DNA from: Flavobacterium marginilacus
Lineage (GTDB): Bacteria > Bacteroidota > Bacteroidia > Flavobacteriales > Flavobacteriaceae
Direction of reading: 5' to 3'
NCBI RefSeq assembly: GCF_026870155.1
Contig: NZ_CP113975.1
Location: 4,154,001 to 4,218,000, forward strand
Length of the DNA stretch: 64,000 nt
Below the pieces are notes generated by a model. That model was not told the origin of the DNA, searched no databases, and saw only the letters and a list, made by a program, of their open reading frames with translations. Both the position numbers and the translations under genes were made by a program. The first letter of the stretch is position 1. The number at the start of each line of letters is the position of its first letter. Positions 34,889 to 44,357 of the stretch are shown here, in pieces.

Positions 34889-36223
34889 TTATTTTATTTC
34901 CAAAGCTTCATCCGTTGGTCGGCCGTATTTTATAAAATCATAGATGAACATACAGATTCCGGTGGCGAACATTGTTGCACAGATCAATAATACTACGAAG
35001 TGAATACTGATTTCGTTCTGTACGACCATAAATTCCATTTTCATTTTTCGCTCCAAATATACCTGTACCACTCCGGCAACTCCAAAAGCGACAGTCATTC
35101 CCAGCATTCCAACATTTGACAGCCAGAAAGCAGCCATTCCTGTTGCGCTTTGGTATCTTTTACGACCTGTTAAATTCGGTAAAGCATAACTAATTATCGC
35201 CAAAACAATCATCGCATAAGCGCCCCAGAAAGCGTAGTGTCCGTGCATGGCCGTTACCAAAGTTCCGTGGGTATAAAGGTTTGTCTGCGGTAAAGTATGT
35301 GCGAAACCTAGTAATCCAGCTCCGATAAATGACACGATTGAAGAACCTATTGTCCAGAAAAGAGCAATTTTGTTTGGGTGGCTTTTTTCACCTTTGCGGT
35401 ACATATTTACAGCAAACAAAGCCATTCCGAGGAAAGCCAATGGCTCCAATGCAGAGAAAATTCCGCCCACGATTAACCAAATTTTATTCACTCCAATATA
35501 ATAGTAATGGTGTCCTGTCCCCAACACTCCTGAAAGGAATGTCAAACCAACGATTACATACAGCCATTTTTCGATAACTTCGCGGTCAACGCCAGTCAAT
35601 TTGATCAATAAATACGAAAGGATACCTCCCATAATTAGTTCCCAAACACCTTCAACCCACAAGTGAACTACCCACCAGCGGAAGAAGGAATCCATCACCT
35701 GACTGTCGAACCAAATCATTCCAGGCAGATACAATAAAGCGGCGAATAACAATCCCATTGTCAATACCAGTGCAGTTGTCGTTTTGCGTTTTCCTTTGAA
35801 AAGCGTTCCCAGAATCAATCCAAGGAACAGCAATACATTAACAACAACCAAGAAATCCAATTCTCTCGGGATTTCTAGAAATTTTCTTCCTTCCCAGTGG
35901 TTTAAGTGAAATCCAACGATGGCCACAACACCAACAACGGCAAGGGAAATCAGTTGTACATACGCCCATTTTACGCTTATCAGTTCGCGCTGTGCTTCTT
36001 CAGGGATAATGTAGTAGGCCGCTCCCATGAAACCAGTTAACAGCCAAACTACCAATAAATTAGTATGCACCGCACGGGCAACATTAAAAGGGATAATATC
36101 ATGCAGTCCTTGAACTCCGATTCTATCAAAGCCCATAATAAAGCCATAGACAATCTGCAGTGAGAACAACAGCATACAGAGTGCAAAAAACCAATAGGCT
36201 ACTTTTTGTGATTTATATTTCAT
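34889..36223 (-). CDS. norB: Nitric oxide reductase subunit B (cNOR)
   Basis: Catalytic subunit reducing two NO to N2O. It is 444 residues with 12 predicted helices. The low-spin heme ligand region is ARAVHTNLLVVWLLTGFMG. The Fe-B site has VVHLWVEGVWELIMGG (His and the NOR-specific Glu) and GTGHHYYYIGV (His-His). The heme pair His region is TAMHGHYAFWGAYAM. It lacks the N-terminal quinol-oxidising extension of qNOR, consistent with the separate NorC just upstream. Confidence 0.96.
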   Translation of the reverse strand: MKYKSQKVAYWFFALCMLLFSLQIVYGFIMGFDRIGVQGLHDIIPFNVARAVHTNLLVVWLLTGFMGAAYYIIPEEAQRELISVKWAYVQLISLAVVGVVAIVGFHLNHWEGRKFLEIPRELDFLVVVNVLLFLGLILGTLFKGKRKTTTALVLTMGLLFAALLYLPGMIWFDSQVMDSFFRWWVVHLWVEGVWELIMGGILSYLLIKLTGVDREVIEKWLYVIVGLTFLSGVLGTGHHYYYIGVNKIWLIVGGIFSALEPLAFLGMALFAVNMYRKGEKSHPNKIALFWTIGSSIVSFIGAGLLGFAHTLPQTNLYTHGTLVTAMHGHYAFWGAYAMIVLAIISYALPNLTGRKRYQSATGMAAFWLSNVGMLGMTVAFGVAGVVQVYLERKMKMEFMVVQNEISIHFVVLLICATMFATGICMFIYDFIKYGRPTDEALEIK

Positions 36224-36235
36224 TGTAATTTTCTT

Positions 36236-36670
36236 TTAATTATTTTCTTTAGCTAAAGGCGAAACGATGCGGTCAAATCCGTTCAAATCAATTTTCCCGA
36301 TCCATTTTAAATAGGCCACAACGGCATCGGCATCTTTTTCATTCATATTATAGACCACCATTTTTCGTCCATTTGGTGCCCAAGGCACTGGTGACATCAG
36401 TACAGCCTTAACGTAACCCTCGCCTCTGCGGTCGATAACTTTTGTCAATTCCGGTGCATAATAGCCTCCTTCTCCTAAAATAGTATGACAGCCCATACAA
36501 TTGTTGTGTTCCCAAATTTCTTTTCCTCTCACGACCTGTTTATCAATCGCCTTGTAATTTGTCTGATCATTTCTAGGCATAAACGAATAAATGGTCAATC
36601 CGATAAAGATTAAAAAGGTGACCAATGTTCCTCCCAGAAAAAATGCCCGTGCTTGTGATTTTGAAAGCAT
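36236..36670 (-). CDS. norC: Nitric oxide reductase subunit C (cytochrome c)
   Basis: A 144-residue membrane-anchored mono-heme cytochrome that feeds electrons to NorB. The single N-terminal helix is AFFLGGTLVTFLIFIGLTIYSF, the heme site NNCMGCHTILGEGGYYAPEL, and the distal Met lies in GRKMVVYNMNEKDADA or VLMSPVPWAPNGRKM. It is the first gene of the leftward operon, 12 bp before norB, behind a complex promoter. Confidence 0.95.
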   Translation of the reverse strand: MLSKSQARAFFLGGTLVTFLIFIGLTIYSFMPRNDQTNYKAIDKQVVRGKEIWEHNNCMGCHTILGEGGYYAPELTKVIDRRGEGYVKAVLMSPVPWAPNGRKMVVYNMNEKDADAVVAYLKWIGKIDLNGFDRIVSPLAKENN

Positions 36671-36915: not shown

Positions 36916-37029
36916 GTTCCTAATTTTCAATTAGTCGTAAAATTACAAAGTCAAAAAAAGAGACCCCCTACAATCTCATTATTTTAACCTTCAAGTATTT
37001 ATAAAGAATTTTAAATAATAAAATTAATT

Positions 37030-37070
37030 AAGGATAAATTTGTCTTTTATTAAAATAGTATCTATTTTTG
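37030..37070 (+). promoter_or_regulatory. ric promoter with overlapping operator-like palindrome
   Basis: TTG (37040-37042) and TATTTTTG (37063-37070), 20 bp apart, form a good Bacteroidota promoter 31 bp before the ric ATG. The palindrome AAGGATAAATTTGTCTTT (37030-37047; 14 of 18 bases symmetrical) covers the -33 TTG, as a repressor site would. Confidence 0.7.
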
Positions 37071-37101
37071 TGCCTATAAATTTTAAATAAAAAAAATCAA
37101 T

Positions 37102-37833
37102 ATGGAAACTTTAGAAAAAATTACAATAGGTCAATATGTAGCAAAAGATTTTAGAACTGCAGCTTTATTCTCAAAATACGGCATCGATTTTTGCTGTAAC
37201 GGCAACAGAAGTATTGAAGAAGCATGCGAGAAAAAATCAGTTAATCCTGATGAATTATTGAAAGAAATTGAAGCTGTTTTGTCTCAAAAAAGTGATTCGG
37301 GAATTGATTTCAATTCTTGGCCGATCGATTTATTAGCCGATTATATCGAGAAAACACACCACCGTTATGTATCGGAAAAAACACCAGTGCTGCTTCAGTT
37401 TTTAGATAAACTGAGCAGAGTACACGGAGCCAATCATCCTGAATTATTAGAAATAAACGAACTTTTTAAAGGATGCGCAGGAGAATTGGCACAGCACATG
37501 AAAAAAGAAGAACTGATTCTGTTTCCTTTTGTCAAAAAAATGGTTCGTGCCACTATTTCAGATGAATTAATTGAACAGCCACATTTTGGAACTGTAGAAA
37601 ATCCAATTGCGATGATGATGCACGAGCATGATACTGAAGGAGAGCGTTTTAGAAAAATAGCATCATTAAGCAACGATTACACACCGCCATCTGATGCATG
37701 TAATACTTATAAAGTAACATTTGCCATGTTACAGGAATTTGAACAGGATCTGCACAAACACATCCATTTGGAAAATAACATTTTATTCCCAAAAGCAGCT
37801 AAACTCGAAAAGGAATTTTCGGCACAATCATAA
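37102..37833 (+). CDS. ric: Iron-sulfur cluster repair di-iron protein (RIC/ScdA/YtfE)
   Basis: Repairs Fe-S clusters damaged by NO or oxidants. It is 243 residues. The N-terminal ScdA_N domain (about residues 1-70) has TIGQYVAKDFRTAALFSKYGIDFCCNG. The hemerythrin-like domain follows, with conserved His ligands in THHRYVSEK, VHGANHPELLE, AQHMKKEELILFPFV, MMMHEHDTEGERF and LHKHIHLENNILFPKA. It is divergent from the nor operon and first in a rightward operon with nrdD. Confidence 0.95.
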   Translation: METLEKITIGQYVAKDFRTAALFSKYGIDFCCNGNRSIEEACEKKSVNPDELLKEIEAVLSQKSDSGIDFNSWPIDLLADYIEKTHHRYVSEKTPVLLQFLDKLSRVHGANHPELLEINELFKGCAGELAQHMKKEELILFPFVKKMVRATISDELIEQPHFGTVENPIAMMMHEHDTEGERFRKIASLSNDYTPPSDACNTYKVTFAMLQEFEQDLHKHIHLENNILFPKAAKLEKEFSAQS

Positions 37834-37862
37834 ACTATGTCAAACACTAAAAATCAACAACT

Positions 37863-39968
37863 ATGGAGAACTATGTAATAAAGAGAAATGGTAAGTACAA
37901 GCCATTTGAAAGTTATAAAATTAAAGATGCCATTGAAAAAAGTTTCAAAAGCGTCTCTGCAGTTGTTGATGAAAGTATTTTTGAAAGCATTATCATACAG
38001 CTTGAAGCTGAAGAAGTATGGGCCGTCGAGGAAATACAGGACATGATTGAGAAGAAATTATACGAAAAGAAATACTTTGACGTCATGCGTTCTTTTATGC
38101 TTTTCCGTCACACGAGGAAATTACAGCGCGAACATATACAGGGCTTGAATGATGACACAACTTATGTGGACAGTTCTCAGACAATTGAAGAATATATTGA
38201 ACAAACCGATTGGCGCATCAATGCCAACGCCAATACTTCGTATTCCAATGCTGGATTGGTCAACAATGTGGCAGGAAAAATTATTGCCAATTATTGGTTA
38301 GATAAAGTTTATACCAAAGAAGAAGGTTATGCCCACCGCAATGGCGATATTCATATTCATGATTTGGATTGTTTAACCGGCTATTGTGCTGGCTGGAGTC
38401 TGCGTGTACTGCTCAACGAAGGTTTTAACGGCGTGAGGGGGCGTGTAGAGAGTAAGCCTCCGTCCCATTTTAGGGAGGCTTTGGGACAAATGGCAAATTT
38501 CCTTGGGATTCTGCAGAGCGAATGGGCGGGAGCTCAGGCTTTCAGTTCGTTTGACACGTATCTCGCTCCTTATGTTTTCAAAGATAATTTGGGTTTTGAC
38601 GATGTTTTAAAAGCGGTCAGAGGTTTTGTTTACAATCTGAATGTTCCCGCGCGCTGGGGACAATCGCCGTTTACCAACATCACTTTGGACTGGATCGTTC
38701 CAGATGATTTAAAAACGCAGATTCCAACCAAAAATGACCATCATATCTTTGAAGACTGCATTACTTCTGACTTATTAGTCAGAGCAAAAAGAAGAGGAGT
38801 GTCTAAAGTAACCGACTTGCGTTATGAGCATTTCCAGAAAGAAATGAACCTTATCAACAAGGCGTATTATACCGTAATGACCGAAGGCGATGCCAACGGA
38901 CAGCCGTTTACCTTCCCTATTCCTACAGTGAATATCACCGAAGCATTTGACTGGGACGGAGAAAACACTGATCTGCTTTTTGAAAATACGGCCAAAATTG
39001 GTTCTTCTTATTTCCAGAATTTTATTGGCAGTCAATATGTTTTGGATGAAAATGGCAATCAGGTTGAAAATGAAAATGCCTACAAACCCAATGCCGTCCG
39101 CAGTATGTGCTGTCGCCTGCAGCTGGATTTACGTGAATTATTGAAACGCGGCAACGGACTTTTTGGAAGTGCCGAAATGACCGGAAGCATTGGTGTTGTA
39201 ACCATCAATATGGCTCGTCTGGGTTATTTGAACAAAGGAAATAAAGGTAAATTATACACCGAACTAGACCATCTTTTATATATAGCCAAATCGACTTTGG
39301 AGAAAAAAAGGGTATTTATCCAAGAGATGTACGACCGAGGATTGTATCCGTACACCAAACGTTATCTGGAACATTTCAGAAACCACTTTTCGACCATTGG
39401 CGTGAATGGAATGAATGAAATGATTGAAAATTTCAGCAATGACGAAGACAATGTAACCTCTGAAACAGGCATCGAGTTTGCTTCAGAAATTTTGGATCAC
39501 ATCCGCAACCGAATGAAAGAATTCCAAGAAGAAACCGGAAATCTGTACAATCTCGAGGCAACACCTGCCGAAGGAACAACGTATCGTTTTGCCAAAGAAG
39601 ACAAAAAACGTTATGACGATATTATTCAGGCAGGACAGCAGGACAATATTTATTATACGAACAGTTCTCAAATTCCAGTAGATTTCACTCAGGATCCGTT
39701 TGAAGCCTTGATGCTGCAGGATCAACTGCAGTGTAAATATACCGGAGGAACAGTTTTACACCTGTACATGAGCGAAAAAATAAGCTCACCCGAAGCCTGC
39801 AAGCAGTTTGTAAAAAAAGTGATTACCAATTTCAGATTACCGTACATTACCGTAACGCCTGTTTTTAGTGTATGTCCGGTGCACGGTTACCTGAACGGCG
39901 AACACGAATATTGCCCAAAATGTGATGAAACCATCATTGAGGAAAAAGCGAAATTTATTGAACATTAA
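37863..39968 (+). CDS. nrdD: Anaerobic ribonucleoside-triphosphate reductase, catalytic chain without glycyl-radical domain
   Basis: Makes dNTPs without oxygen. It is 701 residues. The N-terminal ATP-cone (about residues 1-95, YVIKRNGKYKPFESYKIKDA) provides allosteric control, followed by the catalytic barrel (HRNGDIHIHDLDCLTGYCAGWSL, SPFTNITLDW, MCCRLQLDLRELLKRGNGLFG). The zinc region CPVHGYLNGEHEYCPKC lies at residues 671-687. The chain stops 14 residues later. The RVxGY glycyl-radical segment that normally follows is absent and is found in the separate gene at 40225-40392. It lies 29 bp after ric, in the same operon. Confidence 0.93.
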   Translation: MENYVIKRNGKYKPFESYKIKDAIEKSFKSVSAVVDESIFESIIIQLEAEEVWAVEEIQDMIEKKLYEKKYFDVMRSFMLFRHTRKLQREHIQGLNDDTTYVDSSQTIEEYIEQTDWRINANANTSYSNAGLVNNVAGKIIANYWLDKVYTKEEGYAHRNGDIHIHDLDCLTGYCAGWSLRVLLNEGFNGVRGRVESKPPSHFREALGQMANFLGILQSEWAGAQAFSSFDTYLAPYVFKDNLGFDDVLKAVRGFVYNLNVPARWGQSPFTNITLDWIVPDDLKTQIPTKNDHHIFEDCITSDLLVRAKRRGVSKVTDLRYEHFQKEMNLINKAYYTVMTEGDANGQPFTFPIPTVNITEAFDWDGENTDLLFENTAKIGSSYFQNFIGSQYVLDENGNQVENENAYKPNAVRSMCCRLQLDLRELLKRGNGLFGSAEMTGSIGVVTINMARLGYLNKGNKGKLYTELDHLLYIAKSTLEKKRVFIQEMYDRGLYPYTKRYLEHFRNHFSTIGVNGMNEMIENFSNDEDNVTSETGIEFASEILDHIRNRMKEFQEETGNLYNLEATPAEGTTYRFAKEDKKRYDDIIQAGQQDNIYYTNSSQIPVDFTQDPFEALMLQDQLQCKYTGGTVLHLYMSEKISSPEACKQFVKKVITNFRLPYITVTPVFSVCPVHGYLNGEHEYCPKCDETIIEEKAKFIEH

Positions 39969-40012
39969 GAAAAGTTTAAAATGTGTCAAACAGGAAGCCA
40001 TTCCTCGATTTT

Positions 40013-40141
40013 GTCATTCCTGACGTAGGAGGACACGAGCGACAGTAAATTGGCGAAGTAATCTCCGCTGCAAAATCGACAAAGATGATTGCCTTTGATT
40101 ACGGAGTTACTTGTGGAGATTCCTCCTTCGTCGGAATTGAC
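40013..40141. repeat. Dispersed inverted repeat in the nrdD gap
   Basis: GTCATTCCTGACGTAGGAGG (40013-40032) and CCTCCTTCGTCGGAATTGAC (40122-40141) form imperfect inverted arms. The interior has ATCTCCGCTGC and TGATTGCCTTTGATTACGG. Similar elements are common in Bacteroidota intergenic DNA. It fills most of the 256-bp gap between the nrdD chain and the glycyl-radical gene. Confidence 0.7.
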
Positions 40142-40224
40142 AATATTGTGAGATAAACAACGAAAATAACATTAAACTATTTTAACCTTTAAACAACTTT
40201 AAACCTTTTAAAACCCAAATAAAT

Positions 40225-40392
40225 ATGAAAATAACAGCCAAGCAGATTCTAGAAGAAAATCAAGAACTACGCACTAAGTGTTTAGTGTACACACGAGTAA
40301 TGGGCTATCACAGACCCGTAGAAAGTTTTAACATAGGAAAAAAAGGTGAACACAGACAACGAACTCATTTTACAGAAGGAAAGTGCTGTTAG
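40225..40392 (+). CDS. Separate glycyl-radical domain of anaerobic ribonucleotide reductase (55 residues)
   Basis: A 55-residue protein that carries the C-terminal NrdD signature missing from the upstream chain. The core LVYTRVMGYHRPVESFN has the RVxGY radical site (Gly27), followed by IGKKGEHRQRTHF, which matches the NrdD 'N.GK..E...R..F' tail, and it ends GKCC. A 19-residue helical leader (MKITAKQILEENQELRTKC) precedes it. The arrangement recalls E. coli GrcA (YfiD), a free glycyl-radical subunit for pyruvate formate-lyase. nrdG starts inside it in another frame, so translation is coupled. Probably supplies the radical glycine in trans. Confidence 0.85.
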   Translation: MKITAKQILEENQELRTKCLVYTRVMGYHRPVESFNIGKKGEHRQRTHFTEGKCC

Positions 40393-41062
40393 GCCCATTT
40401 ACAGCCTAACACCTTTCACTTTATTAGACTATCCGCACAAATCAGCTTGCATTCTTTGGTTTGCAGGCTGTAATATGCGGTGTCTATATTGCTACAATCC
40501 CGAAATTGTTTTTGGGAAAGGCATTATTTCATTCGAAAATGCAATCCAGTTTCTAAAAAACAGAAAAAAACTGCTGGACGCTGTCGTCTTTAGCGGTGGC
40601 GAATGTTTACTGCACAAAAGAAGCGTCTCCTTCATTGAAGAAGTCAAGAATATGGGATTCTTGGTCAAAATTGACACGAACGGCTCACAGCCCAAAATAC
40701 TCAAAGAACTTATCAACAAAAAACTTGTCAATTATGTCGCACTTGATTTTAAGGCCATGCCGGATAACTTCGAAAAGATAACACAGTCGGATCTTTTTAT
40801 TCCGTTTGAAAAGTCACTACATTTATTGCTTGAGAGCGAAGTTCCATTTGAAGTGCGCACAACGGTACATTCCGATTTATTGAAGAAAAACGACATTCAG
40901 CAGATGATTTCCTATCTGGAAAACATCGGTTATATAGGAAATTATTATCTTCAGCATTTTAGGAATGAGACCCCAACGATTGAAAAACTAGGGCATTCGT
41001 TCAGGGATTTGGAAAACGAAAATCTTTCAACAGAAAAAATTAAAGTGCATTTTAGAGGCTAA
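40346..41062 (+). CDS. nrdG: Anaerobic ribonucleotide reductase activating protein (radical SAM)
   Basis: A 238-residue radical SAM enzyme that installs the glycyl radical on NrdD. The [4Fe-4S] motif is FAGCNMRCLYCYNPEIVFG (CxxxCxxC, about residues 41-48), and the SAM-binding GGE occurs in VVFSGGECLLHKRS. The N-terminal SLTPFTLLDYPHKSACILW is typical of the NrdG/YjjW group. GTG at 40346 gives a 47-bp overlap with the small glycyl-radical gene; a later start just before the conserved block cannot be excluded. The next gene follows after 2 bp. Confidence 0.9.
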   Translation: MNTDNELILQKESAVRPIYSLTPFTLLDYPHKSACILWFAGCNMRCLYCYNPEIVFGKGIISFENAIQFLKNRKKLLDAVVFSGGECLLHKRSVSFIEEVKNMGFLVKIDTNGSQPKILKELINKKLVNYVALDFKAMPDNFEKITQSDLFIPFEKSLHLLLESEVPFEVRTTVHSDLLKKNDIQQMISYLENIGYIGNYYLQHFRNETPTIEKLGHSFRDLENENLSTEKIKVHFRG

Positions 41063-41064
41063 TT

Positions 41065-42273
41065 ATGAGAAAGAGCTGGATTCTTGTTTGTTTTATCAAT
41101 TTTTTCATTGCTTCGCTGATGGGGTTATTACTCCGATGGATGTATGTTGCCCCAATTGAAGGAGTCAATTTTCAGTTTTTGATGCACGGCCATTCGCATG
41201 TTGCAATGCTGGGCTGGGTGTATATGATGCTTTATTGCCTGATATTTTACTCTTTTATCCCTGAAAAAGCACAAGAAAAACCCATTTACAACAAATTGTT
41301 TTGGGTAACAGAAATCGCAGTCATCGGGATGATGATCGACTTCCCTGCGCAGGGATATGCCTTTGCTTCTATCCTTTTTTCGACTTTGCATATTTTTTGC
41401 AGTTACTGGTTCTGTTATTTAGTTTGGAAAGACGCCGAACCCGCCGCTTTGCCCGAAAAGAAAATGCTGCGAACCGCTTTGTTTTTTATGCTCTTATCCA
41501 CCGCTGGTGTTTGGTGTCTGGGTCCTGCGGTAGGATTGTTAGGAAAAGCAAGTGCGTTCTATCAAATTGCTATTCAGTTTTTCCTCCATTTTCAGTTTAA
41601 TGGATGGTTTCTGTTTGCTGTTTTGGCTTTATTTTTCAAGCAGGCAAAACTCGTTTTCGATGAGAAAAAATTCAGTCTAATTTATAATTTATTCGTCTGT
41701 TCTACAGTATTGACTTTGGCCTTGCCCGTGAGCTGGTATTTGTCCAATCCTATTTTTCACTGGATAAATGCAATTGGCGTTGTCCTGCAGATGGTTTCGG
41801 CGGTTCTTTTTATTCATCACATCAAGCCACAATTAACGGTGTTTTTTTCCAATCTTTCGATATTAGTAAAAACCGTTTACGGATTTGCGTTGTTCTCATT
41901 AGCTTTAAAAATCATCATTCAGCTGGTAGTTTTGGTTCCTGAACTAGCGCAGGTTTCTCATCAGATTCGGAATTTTGTTATTGGTTATATTCATTTGACG
42001 ATGCTGGGAATTATCACTGGATTTCTGTTTGGATTTGCTTTTCAGAATAGTTTTTTAAACCCGAAAAAATTTATTGAAAAATGGGGAATGAATCTATTTC
42101 TGCTCGGATTTGTGGCAACTGAAATACTGCTGTTTCTCCAAGGCATTTGGCTGTTCCTGAACAAAAGCTCGTTTCCTGATTATTATCTAAATTTATTTTT
42201 AGTGAGCATCTTTTTACCAGTGGGACTTTTGATGCTTACGATTGGTATTTCATTTAAAAAAACAAACGATTAA
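41065..42273 (+). CDS. Polytopic membrane protein resembling a degenerate NorB/heme-copper subunit I
   Basis: A 402-residue protein with about 11-12 hydrophobic helices. Segments line up by eye with NorB of this window: LMHGHSHVAMLGWVYMMLY...FIPEKAQ with HTNLLVVWLLTGFMGAAYY...IIPEEAQ, FFLHFQFNGWF with VVHLWVEGVWE, and GYIHLTMLGIITGFLFGF with the MHGHYAFWG helix. The NOR-specific Glu and the His-His pair of the Fe-B site are not visible. It may bind heme, but catalysis is doubtful. NnrS-like proteins are the alternative. It is in the ric-nrdD-nrdG operon, so a role in NO or anaerobic metabolism is inferred. Confidence 0.6.
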   Translation: MRKSWILVCFINFFIASLMGLLLRWMYVAPIEGVNFQFLMHGHSHVAMLGWVYMMLYCLIFYSFIPEKAQEKPIYNKLFWVTEIAVIGMMIDFPAQGYAFASILFSTLHIFCSYWFCYLVWKDAEPAALPEKKMLRTALFFMLLSTAGVWCLGPAVGLLGKASAFYQIAIQFFLHFQFNGWFLFAVLALFFKQAKLVFDEKKFSLIYNLFVCSTVLTLALPVSWYLSNPIFHWINAIGVVLQMVSAVLFIHHIKPQLTVFFSNLSILVKTVYGFALFSLALKIIIQLVVLVPELAQVSHQIRNFVIGYIHLTMLGIITGFLFGFAFQNSFLNPKKFIEKWGMNLFLLGFVATEILLFLQGIWLFLNKSSFPDYYLNLFLVSIFLPVGLLMLTIGISFKKTND

Positions 42274-42279
42274 TTTTTA

Positions 42280-42425
42280 AACATATAAGTCATATAAGTT
42301 TTTTAAACAGAAAATAAATTTTCAAAATCTTGAACCATTAAGAGATTAAGAAAATTAAGGTTATCCCTTAATGAACCTTAATAACTTAATGGTTTAAACT
42401 AAAAAATATACATGACTTATATGTT
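42280..42425. repeat. Nested palindromic element
   Basis: The outer inverted arms are AACATATAAGTCAT (42280-42293) and ATGACTTATATGTT (42412-42425). The inner arms (42332-42396) are built of AACCATTAAG and CTTAATGGTT words, the same family as 32018-32142. The outer arm plus its continuation CATATAAGTTTTTT recurs at 57022-57048. Confidence 0.7.
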
Positions 42426-42452
42426 TTATTAAAAACTTAAACCAAAAACGAT

Positions 42453-42902
42453 ATGAACCATCATTTACTGTTAATCATTCATCTTATATGTGCTTCCATT
42501 TGGGTGGGAGGGCATTTGTTACTGGTTTTTGGGCATTTGCCAAAAGCACTGAAAGAAAAAAACCAAAATATAATTCTCGACTATGAACGGAAGTACGAAC
42601 CGGTGGGAATGACTTCGCTGGTTTTATTAGTAACCACGGGAATTATGATGGCTTACAAATATGGCGTAAGCATCGAATACTGGTTTCAATTTGCCACACC
42701 GATAGAAAAAGTGGTTTCTACCAAACTGCTTTTACTTTTTCTGACAGTTCTTTTTGCGTTGAGCGCGCAATTCAGAGTGCTGCCAAAACTGAAAACTGAT
42801 TCCCGTAAACTGCCCGAAATGACATTTCATATTCTTTCGGTTACGCTGATTGGTGTTGTGATGCTTATTTTGGGTTCTTTTGTGCGTTTTGGAGGACTTT
42901 AA
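42453..42902 (+). CDS. CopD-like four-helix membrane protein
   Basis: A 149-residue protein with four hydrophobic helices and His residues at the helix starts (NHHLLLIIHLICASIWVGGHLLLVFGHLP), in the pattern of the copper resistance D/YaaH-like heme-binding family. Later helices are TSLVLLVTTGIMMAYKYG, STKLLLLFLTVLFALSAQF and ILSVTLIGVVMLILGSFV. It could bind copper or heme. It lies in the same direction as nrdG and the NorB-like gene, 179 bp after the latter. Confidence 0.75.
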   Translation: MNHHLLLIIHLICASIWVGGHLLLVFGHLPKALKEKNQNIILDYERKYEPVGMTSLVLLVTTGIMMAYKYGVSIEYWFQFATPIEKVVSTKLLLLFLTVLFALSAQFRVLPKLKTDSRKLPEMTFHILSVTLIGVVMLILGSFVRFGGL

Positions 42903-42930
42903 TCTTGAACGAACAACTAATTCTCTTCTC

Positions 42931-43039
42931 CTGCAGTTACCCGCGTGAGGGGTTGCAGTGAAGCTCTCCCGATTTTTCATCGGGAAGCGGGAACGAAAAA
43001 CCCGACCCTGAGTTTTTTACGAAGGGACACGCCCAAATG
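42931..43039 (-). repeat. Dispersed palindromic repeat, GGGCGTG family, minus-strand copy
   Basis: Read on the minus strand it goes from CATTTGGGCGTGTCCC through GGGTCGGGTTTTTCG and a CCCGATGAAAAATCGGG hairpin to CCCCTCACGCGGGTAACTGCA. The start and end words match the copy at 62710-62841. Confidence 0.75.
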
Positions 43040-43126
43040 ATGATTTTTATTCAAAAAACAGCCAAACCTTTAGGGTAATTTCTAGAGAGTTTGGAACTAA
43101 TTTCTTAAATTTGTAAAAAACCGATT

Positions 43127-43561
43127 ATGTTTTCCAAAACCTGTGAATACGGCATTCGAGCCACGATTTTCATCGCTTCAGAGTCTTATCAAAACAAAAG
43201 AGTTGGACTCAAAGACATTGCCAAAAAGATTGATTCCCCAGAAGCTTTTACGGCCAAAATTCTTCAAATACTATCAAAAGACAACATCATTAATTCCATA
43301 AAAGGTGTTGGTGGCGGTTTCGAGATTCCAAGAGAAATAATGAAGGACATTAAACTAGCACAAATCGTGAATGCCCTGGAAGGGGACCGCGTTTTTACGG
43401 GCTGTGGTTTAGGTCTCGCGCATTGTTCCGATAGTCATCCCTGCCCGATGCATGAAAAATTTAAATCAATTCGAAGCGAATTAGCTTTTATGCTCGAGAA
43501 TACCAATCTTGAAGAATTAGCTTTAGGTATAAAATCTAGTGATACATTTTTGAGGTATTAA
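43127..43561 (+). CDS. Rrf2-family transcriptional regulator (NsrR/IscR type)
   Basis: A 144-residue winged-helix regulator. The N-terminal DNA-binding domain starts MFSKTCEYGIRATIFIA and has KDIAKKIDSPEAFTAKILQIL and the wing IKGVGGGFEI. Three cysteines, in the spacing C-x6-C-x5-C (TGCGLGLAHCSDSHPCPMH, about residues 94-110), are ready to hold a [2Fe-2S] or [4Fe-4S] cluster. Given its location beside NO-handling genes, NsrR-type NO sensing is the best inference; IscR-type control is the alternative. It is a candidate reader of the AAGGATA palindromes. Confidence 0.85.
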   Translation: MFSKTCEYGIRATIFIASESYQNKRVGLKDIAKKIDSPEAFTAKILQILSKDNIINSIKGVGGGFEIPREIMKDIKLAQIVNALEGDRVFTGCGLGLAHCSDSHPCPMHEKFKSIRSELAFMLENTNLEELALGIKSSDTFLRY

Positions 43562-43622
43562 AATAGTAATCCTATATTTACATGATAATTTTAAGCAGCC
43601 AATCTTAAAACCTCTAATTATC

Positions 43623-44357
43623 ATGACTAAATCTAAGGAATCCGGCTTAAATTCTCTTCTAAAAATAGATTATGAAGATGATAATAAAATTTGGCTTACC
43701 AATAGTCTGACCCTTCGAAAGATTATTGGTATTATGGGAATGGCTTTGCCTTTACTGTTATTTGGATTCCTGTATCTTGACAATGGCTTACAATATCCTT
43801 TAGAATCTATCAGCCATTATTACTATACCCGTGCTGGCAGTATTTTTGTAATTGTTTTGAGCCTCCTCGCCTTTTTTCTGATTGTTTACAAGGGCAAAGA
43901 GACTGCTGACTTTTATATTTCGTTATCTGCAGGAATTTTTGCCTTACTGGCCGTTTTGTTTCCTACTAGTAATATTACGGATATATGCGGAGATCCTGCA
44001 AAAAAATATGCAGTTACTATATTACCAGTAAGCAATTTCAGAATGTATTTTCATTATACCATGGCAGCATTATTTTTTATTTGCCTATCGTATATGTGCT
44101 TTTTTTTATTTACAAAATCAAATAAGGATCCTAGTAAAAGAGGAAGTAAAAAAATCCTCCGAAACCGAATTTACAGAATTTGTGCTGTACTTATGTTTTT
44201 GGCAATATTGGTTCCGTTTGCCGGCTTACTAAAAATAATTCCTTCCTTCTATTTTTCAAAGTATCCACTAACATTTTGGATGGAAACACTGGCGGTTGAA
44301 AGTTTCGGCTTTGCATGGTTAGTTAAAGGTGAAACCCTTTTTAAAGATCATAACTGA
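43623..44357 (+). CDS. Six-helix membrane protein of unknown function (DUF998-like)
   Basis: A 244-residue protein with about six to seven hydrophobic helices. The loop after the first helix contains QYPLESISHYYYTRAGSIFV, and a short conserved-looking CGDP motif follows the third helix. The helix layout and 'ISHYY' segment resemble DUF998-like proteins, but I do not recognise a function. It follows the Rrf2 gene by 61 bp in the same direction and ends at a strong terminator. Confidence 0.6.
   Translation: MTKSKESGLNSLLKIDYEDDNKIWLTNSLTLRKIIGIMGMALPLLLFGFLYLDNGLQYPLESISHYYYTRAGSIFVIVLSLLAFFLIVYKGKETADFYISLSAGIFALLAVLFPTSNITDICGDPAKKYAVTILPVSNFRMYFHYTMAALFFICLSYMCFFLFTKSNKDPSKRGSKKILRNRIYRICAVLMFLAILVPFAGLLKIIPSFYFSKYPLTFWMETLAVESFGFAWLVKGETLFKDHN

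Follow-up and report, generated by a model that had tools for sequence, protein, structure and literature searches.

A conserved two-gene NrdD in Bacteroidota with a predicted glycyl-radical chain of its own

Class III ribonucleotide reductases are described as having one NrdD chain that bears its own radical. In Flavobacterium marginilacus, the nrdD reading frame ends before the radical loop, and the loop is encoded by a separate small open reading frame (ORF) of 55 residues on the same strand. Do the two frames give one enzyme made of two chains, and might the radical carrier then be a replaceable part? The locus lies in a stretch of 64,000 nucleotides (contig NZ_CP113975.1, positions 4,154,001 to 4,218,000), here called the window, whose own numbering is used below (Table 1). 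The comparative data, which are data on sequences, make us confident that the pair represents a conserved two-chain class III reductase. Formation of the radical on the small chain and its use in trans are likely, while exchange of the small chain after damage, together with loops supplied by phages, is plausible, roughly an even call. Taken as a whole, a class III reductase built from two NrdD chains, with the radical loop acting in trans and probably replaceable after damage by oxygen (O2) or nitric oxide (NO), is the explanation that we consider probable.

The two chains and the position of the cut

Both frames are where a first-pass annotation of the window had placed them, and the 701-residue large chain ends, as it had observed, 14 residues past the zinc motif. 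The RVMGY radical loop is encoded by the small ORF. The Pfam NrdD profile PF13597 (562 positions) is covered in turn by the large chain (positions 2-529) and the small chain (532-562; 27.7 bits, cut-off 26.2). A profile search of the organism's own genome (5.3 Mb, 2 contigs) returned these two PF13597 matches only and no further NrdD, such as the intact second copy that the annotation had allowed for. Elsewhere the genome encodes one large subunit of class I/II type (PF02867), and its single PF01228 match is a 750-residue frame for a full-length enzyme of the pyruvate formate-lyase (PFL) type.

The large chain carries the hallmarks of NrdD, that is, PF13597 and the ATP-cone, the catalytic cysteines, HxHD and NxN. 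The catalytic cysteines and the H, H and D of HxHD occupy invariant columns in an alignment of 31 rows. The glycyl-radical loop is not on this polypeptide and sits in the separate ORF. The annotation had described the glycyl-radical domain as a separate protein; this holds for the radical loop and the tail but not for the zinc half, CPVHGYLNGEHEYCPKC, which is on the large chain. The cut thus falls inside the predicted glycyl-radical domain, leaving the zinc half on the large chain and placing the radical loop and the C-terminal tail on the other. In Prevotella copri NrdD this domain comprises residues 676-739, with the zinc site, the Gly711 loop and the tail, as described in PMC11226230. By its pattern, the motif ahead of the loop on our large chain is a candidate structural zinc site. 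In the nearest fused relatives, about three residues lie between CPxC and the position equivalent to Cys19 of the small chain; in the split pair this stretch is occupied by the 14-residue tail and the variable leader. The predicted structure of the whole small chain is of low confidence, and the leader varies in sequence.

Every frame of the gap between the two genes contains stops, and the small ORF is in frame +1 relative to the large one. Hence, no error at a single base could rejoin them into one frame, in line with the earlier view that a sequencing error is an improbable source of the split. A scan of positions 37000-43700 with Rfam for an intron gave no match at E <= 0.1.

Conservation and spread of the split

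NrdD is present in 72 of 199 same-genus genomes. Our set of 86 Bacteroidota loci includes 70 of these 72, eight more from the genus and eight from other genera of the family, order or class; G046 and G069, where nrdD is broken by contig ends, are not among them. The two-gene split is found in 86/86 loci (78 from the genus), so that the small gene beside an NrdD of about 700 residues, which the annotation had suggested looking for, recurs throughout. Seven same-genus genomes with open frames of 774-802 residues were considered as cases of fused NrdD and rejected: their DNA has a stop between the pieces, and they are split.

With the start of the small gene taken as the last ATG at least 12 residues ahead of the loop, its position relative to the end of the large gene ranges from a 29-nt overlap to a distance of 631 nt. 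The genes overlap in 46 loci, always in frame +1. In the other 40 they are 10-631 nt apart, in frame +1 in 17, 0 in 18 and +2 in five, and 16 of the 18 in frame 0 contain at least two stops at the junction. The fixed frame relation and the closeness expected of a programmed-frameshift gene are not seen across the 86 loci. Moreover, the 25-codon core of the small gene occurs as 80 distinct DNA sequences that encode only five distinct proteins, and the ratio of nonsynonymous to synonymous differences (pN/pS) is 0.018 (400 random pairs), a rough value given that the mean pS of 0.705 is near saturation. The core is under strong constraint.

Beyond the genus, the family survey gave an NrdD match in 41 of 397 genomes, of which seven are split, 31 unsplit, one a contig fragment and two weak. 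The unsplit NrdDs, about 600 residues long, belong to another group (e.g., L088 and L089); the family thus has two class III types that are unrelated. In the class survey (345 genomes, 19 with NrdD) the split pattern was seen in 10 of the 19 and other NrdD groups in nine, the calls for G1352, G1431, G1439 and G1519 being made from Pfam ranges alone. The split occurs in seven families: f1, f3 and f8, together with f55 from the order survey and f6, f83 and f99 from the class survey. A pattern search of named genomes yielded 552 confirmed stretches, many from the same genomes as the other surveys, and the best 80 of the 552 are all short ORFs (80/80). A protein search found 2357 clusters of 30-96 residues, some of which may be contig-end fragments. 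A contig filed under a Klebsiella pneumoniae metagenome-assembled genome (L148) has a Flavobacterium-type small gene and is probably mis-binned.

Plasmids also carry the pair. Twenty-eight plasmid records matched, and the 12 loci examined comprise nine split, two fused and one with the small gene alone. The split is present on plasmids of Cupriavidus, Sulfuricurvum, Paracoccus, Bradyrhizobium, Thiothrix, Shinella, Sulfuricystis, Cereibacter and Aquabacterium. On the Thiothrix plasmid, the nrdD frame ahead of the small gene has 321 residues only (L270, 2042-3004), possibly broken or with a frame error. Fused genes were found on plasmids of Acidiphilium and Actinomyces (L266, 1273-3156; L265, 1180-3159). 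These natural re-fusions have a linker of about 11-13 residues from CPxC (CDKC in Actinomyces) to the conserved Cys. On Allochromatium vinosum pALVIN01, the small gene is alone (L269, 2965-3174), with neither nrdD nor nrdG beside it; it adjoins a gene for a CHAP-domain protein. The cut site within the glycyl-radical domain is common to several phyla, and the tree, which is midpoint-rooted and was built without the Thiothrix row (321-residue large frame) and without outgroups of the E. coli type, suggests one old split and two re-fusions. That the split is kept in all 86 Bacteroidota loci and in nine of the 12 plasmid loci, with variable spacing and frame, bears out the two-chain reading proposed initially. 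The Cupriavidus large chain alone has a computed mass of 76.19 kDa; the nrdD and nrdG genes of pHG1 in Alcaligenes eutrophus (now C. necator) were reportedly found by Siedow and coworkers in 1999 to be needed for anaerobic growth, with an NrdD of 76.2 kDa. The near-equal masses make it probable that the pHG1 enzyme is split and that such a system functions in vivo.

Cys19 of the small chain (40279-40281) is kept in 86/86 split loci and all but one of 63 distinct viral cores, and it is not present in all fused relatives. We considered an inter-chain zinc bridge in which Cys19 is the fourth ligand, replacing the cysteine that is changed to histidine in CPVH. This idea was rejected, because the pairings in 119 of 120 scorable fused relatives break it: histidine is paired with Ser/Thr in 47 and with Cys in 15, cysteine with Cys in 39 and with Ser, Thr, Ala or Gly in 17, and aspartate with Cys in one.

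Virus-borne copies and competing explanations

In IMG/VR, 136 stretches fit the search pattern and 130 are relatives, of which the best 80 were studied (L183-L262). By stop-to-stop length, 76 of these are short ORFs, three are unclear and one lies within a long open frame. Neither an NrdD core nor NrdG2 (one query) was found within up to 4 kb of each flank in 79 of the 80 loci, and 57 of the 79 have at least 2.3 kb of upstream sequence, that is, room for an nrdD. The NrdD core was likewise absent from 39 of 40 whole records searched, some of which are fragments. At L199 both nrdD and nrdG adjoin the small gene, and this contig may be bacterial. A PHROGs scan of the neighbours on 25 contigs gave packaging, tail, portal or integrase matches on 11, a phage-type DNA polymerase on three, an HNH endonuclease on two, and unknown or no matches on nine. 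Four of the virus-contig genes adjoin wall-lysis genes. The small protein itself matches phrog_4132, a PHROGs family without assigned function.

These copies are the best support, albeit indirect, for an exchangeable chain, and they make a spare-part logic likely here by inference. In such a mechanism, the small chain would dock at the large chain's zinc motif, which would place Gly27 in the barrel near Cys416/Cys417, and NrdG2 would form the radical on the small chain. Glycyl-radical enzymes are cut by O2 at the glycine (PMC3019208 and PMC8683613). For a loop encoded separately, the loss from such a cut would be 55 residues and not about 750: if O2 or NO destroyed the loop, only the small piece would be lost and a fresh one could be inserted. 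Viruses that carry the small gene alone would keep or restore the anaerobic supply of deoxynucleoside triphosphates of the host during infection. The more specific proposal, that many uncultured phages carry a loop gene of about 50 residues as an NrdD-specific spare part that swaps into the split NrdD of the host under O2 or NO stress, is tentative, and we would place it slightly on the doubtful side.

Could ribosome bypass, read-through of the stop or a programmed frameshift nevertheless yield one protein from the two ORFs? Where the genes overlap (46 loci), the constant +1 frame is one that a frameshift could use, and the overlap taken by itself would permit frameshift or read-through there; some fused NrdDs exist as well. 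However, the remaining 40 loci have their genes apart and in all three frames, most in-frame junctions have several stops, the window has three-frame stops over 256 nt, and the virus copies have no large chain to join. Since spacing and frame vary and the junctions contain stops, a shared frameshift or read-through is not the general solution, and we regard a joined protein as very unlikely. A pseudogene, in which transposition of a repeat has disrupted the nrdD of this strain, would account for the repeat in the gap. This reading is refuted by the conservation of the split in all 86 loci, mostly without a repeat-sized gap, and by the low pN/pS of the core, and its probability is close to nil. 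As the genes overlap in 46 of the 86 loci, this repeat is regarded as inserted locally and did not cause the split. A fixed two-subunit enzyme is possible, albeit in our judgment doubtful: the split would be a neutral historical accident and the small chain would stay bound, with no replacement function. One old split suffices for the tree, two lineages have re-fused without visible cost, the gene pairs are adjacent and coupled, and the genus has no spare copies. A fixed subunit leaves unexplained, however, why the small gene stands alone in virus contigs and on a plasmid, and why the neighbourhood is recurrently NO-related. The virus-contig genes might also serve otherwise, for example as a decoy or inhibitor that occupies the loop site of the host reductase. 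They are apart from nrdD and nrdG, several adjoin lysis genes and PHROGs assigns them no function; a blocker, however, would not need the Gly, which is kept with the other loop residues, a weak point given that TRVMGYH was in the search pattern. We consider such a role unlikely.

Several observations weigh against a replaceable radical chain acting in trans. There is no convincing spare second copy in the 72 same-genus genomes with NrdD, and the only one with two copies (G160) is a fragmented assembly. The joined-chain structure model is of one chain read through the stop and is uninformative on docking of the free chain. A split is not required, since the nearest outgroups have fused NrdDs that, to current knowledge, function with no loop on a chain of its own. 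Among the 50,697 phages of INPHARED, two queries gave no match at E <= 0.01, and two others at E <= 10 gave 13 and 28 weak records (best E 2e-3); many of these are annotated as full-length NrdD, and the two regions inspected have no stand-alone gene. In addition, the virus search patterns contained TRVMGYH and RP[VI]ESFN, and conservation at these positions is partly built in.

How does the pair compare with known systems? It resembles the fused class III NrdDs of P. copri, T. maritima and T4 in the ATP-cone, barrel, catalytic cysteines, HxHD, NxN flap and zinc motif, as well as in the RVxGY loop and the NrdG activase (P. copri features from PMC11226230). It differs in that a second chain, which has a start of its own, bears the loop and tail, the cut being between zinc motif and loop. 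The likeness to GrcA drawn in the first-pass annotation is fair: E. coli YfiD/GrcA and the phage-borne Y06I of T4 are small free glycyl-radical proteins that act as spare parts of PFL and are proposed to be exchanged after damage by oxygen (PMC8683613). Our small protein is not a GrcA, however; it matches PF13597 and not PF01228, and by homology it would serve NrdD. Moreover, the large NrdD chain is without the loop by gene structure, whereas PFL loses its loop by cleavage. The split class II reductase NrdJa/NrdJb of Pseudomonas aeruginosa also has a catalytic chain and a C-terminal module encoded by adjacent genes; according to PMC4009431, PMC5704485 and PMC9669993, however, it is B12-dependent, and what is encoded apart is a cysteine-rich zinc domain instead of a radical carrier. 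The class II catalytic domain PF02867 is not on our large chain, which has PF13597; the PF02867 match of the genome is elsewhere. In phages (Aeh1, phiAS4, T-even introns), nrdA and nrdD coding sequences likewise occur in pieces, but these are sporadic, arise from introns, inteins or homing endonucleases and, in the accessible part of PMC3653736, include no free-standing radical loop. Our literature search, with most subscription papers outside its scope, found split class II enzymes and intron-broken phage genes and no separate NrdD radical chain.

According to Andorfer and colleagues, validation extends to only two spare parts, both of PFL, and there may be others (PMC8683613). The present locus offers a testable reductase candidate: a radical carrier as a separate protein of about 6 kDa, found in denitrifier-type operons of several phyla and alone in virus contigs. 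If the spare-part proposal is true, a spare part would for the first time be known for a glycyl-radical enzyme besides PFL, and the radical of a ribonucleotide reductase would reside on a mobile cofactor protein borne by viruses. The arrangement also provides an experimental handle, as labels, mutations or swaps can be confined to the radical piece and the catalytic chain left untouched, and phrog_4132, a phage family of unassigned function, gains a candidate role. The annotation had left open whether the split is recorded already. RefSeq names both pieces, as two proteins with near-identical names ('anaerobic ribonucleoside-triphosphate reductase' for the small and 'ribonucleoside triphosphate reductase' for the large), and does not call them one enzyme.

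Neighbouring genes and the repeat

Table 1. Features of the nrdD locus in window coordinates.
Feature	Position	Strand	Basis
norB-like (COX1 family) and norC-like (cytochrome c) genes, facing away from nrdD	34889..36670	-	PF00115, PF00034, weak PF22085
Ric/ScdA-type iron-centre repair protein, upstream of nrdD	37102..37833	+	PF04405, PF01814
nrdD large chain, 701 aa: ATP-cone, catalytic barrel, zinc motif	37863..39968	+	PF03477 62.3 bits, PF13597 546.1 bits, NF006126 1079.9 bits
Large-chain motifs: NANAN 120, HIHD 164, Cys175 in GYCAGW, Cys416-Cys417 in SMCCRL			sequence reading
Zinc motif CPVHGYLNGEHEYCPKC, CPVHG...CPKC, residues 671-687; glycyl-radical-domain half on large chain	39873..39923	+	sequence pattern
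Gap, 256 nt, stops in three frames	39969..40224	+	
Interspersed repeat, 129 bp, within the gap between both genes	40013..40141	.	12 genome matches including itself
Radical chain, 55 aa: 16-residue variable leader, conserved Arg16 and Cys19, TRVMGY loop, NrdD-type tail	40225..40392	+	PF13597 532-562, phrog_4132
Gly27 codon, predicted glycyl-radical residue	40303..40305	+	invariant in 25-row alignment
nrdG2 activase gene, start inside small gene	40346..41062	+	TIGR02495 201.1 bits, cut-off 131.15
Rrf2-family regulator, NsrR-like by context	43127..43561	+	PF02082

The first-pass annotation was also right that nrdG begins inside the small gene: its only candidate start among ATG, GTG and TTG is the GTG at 40346, 47 nt ahead of the small-gene end. 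An nrdG motif was found in 68 loci, and in 62 of them every candidate start precedes the end of the small gene, which suggests translational coupling. The nrdG2 gene adjoins in 65/65 loci with a full 8 kb of sequence. The NO-related setting that the annotation had pointed out recurs in these 65 loci, with Ric/hemerythrin genes in 59, Rrf2 in 49, NorC in 36 and NorB in 29. The Cupriavidus locus has norB, Rrf2 and hemerythrin genes close by, and the Sulfuricurvum locus has NnrS and NapA. The repeat noticed at the outset is real, and one of its genome matches spans nearly the full length at 80%; no internal repeats were found inside the gap. Downstream of nrdG, a 402-residue ORF (41065-42273) without a Pfam match is present in 33 of the 65 full loci and looks like a membrane protein of an NO operon.
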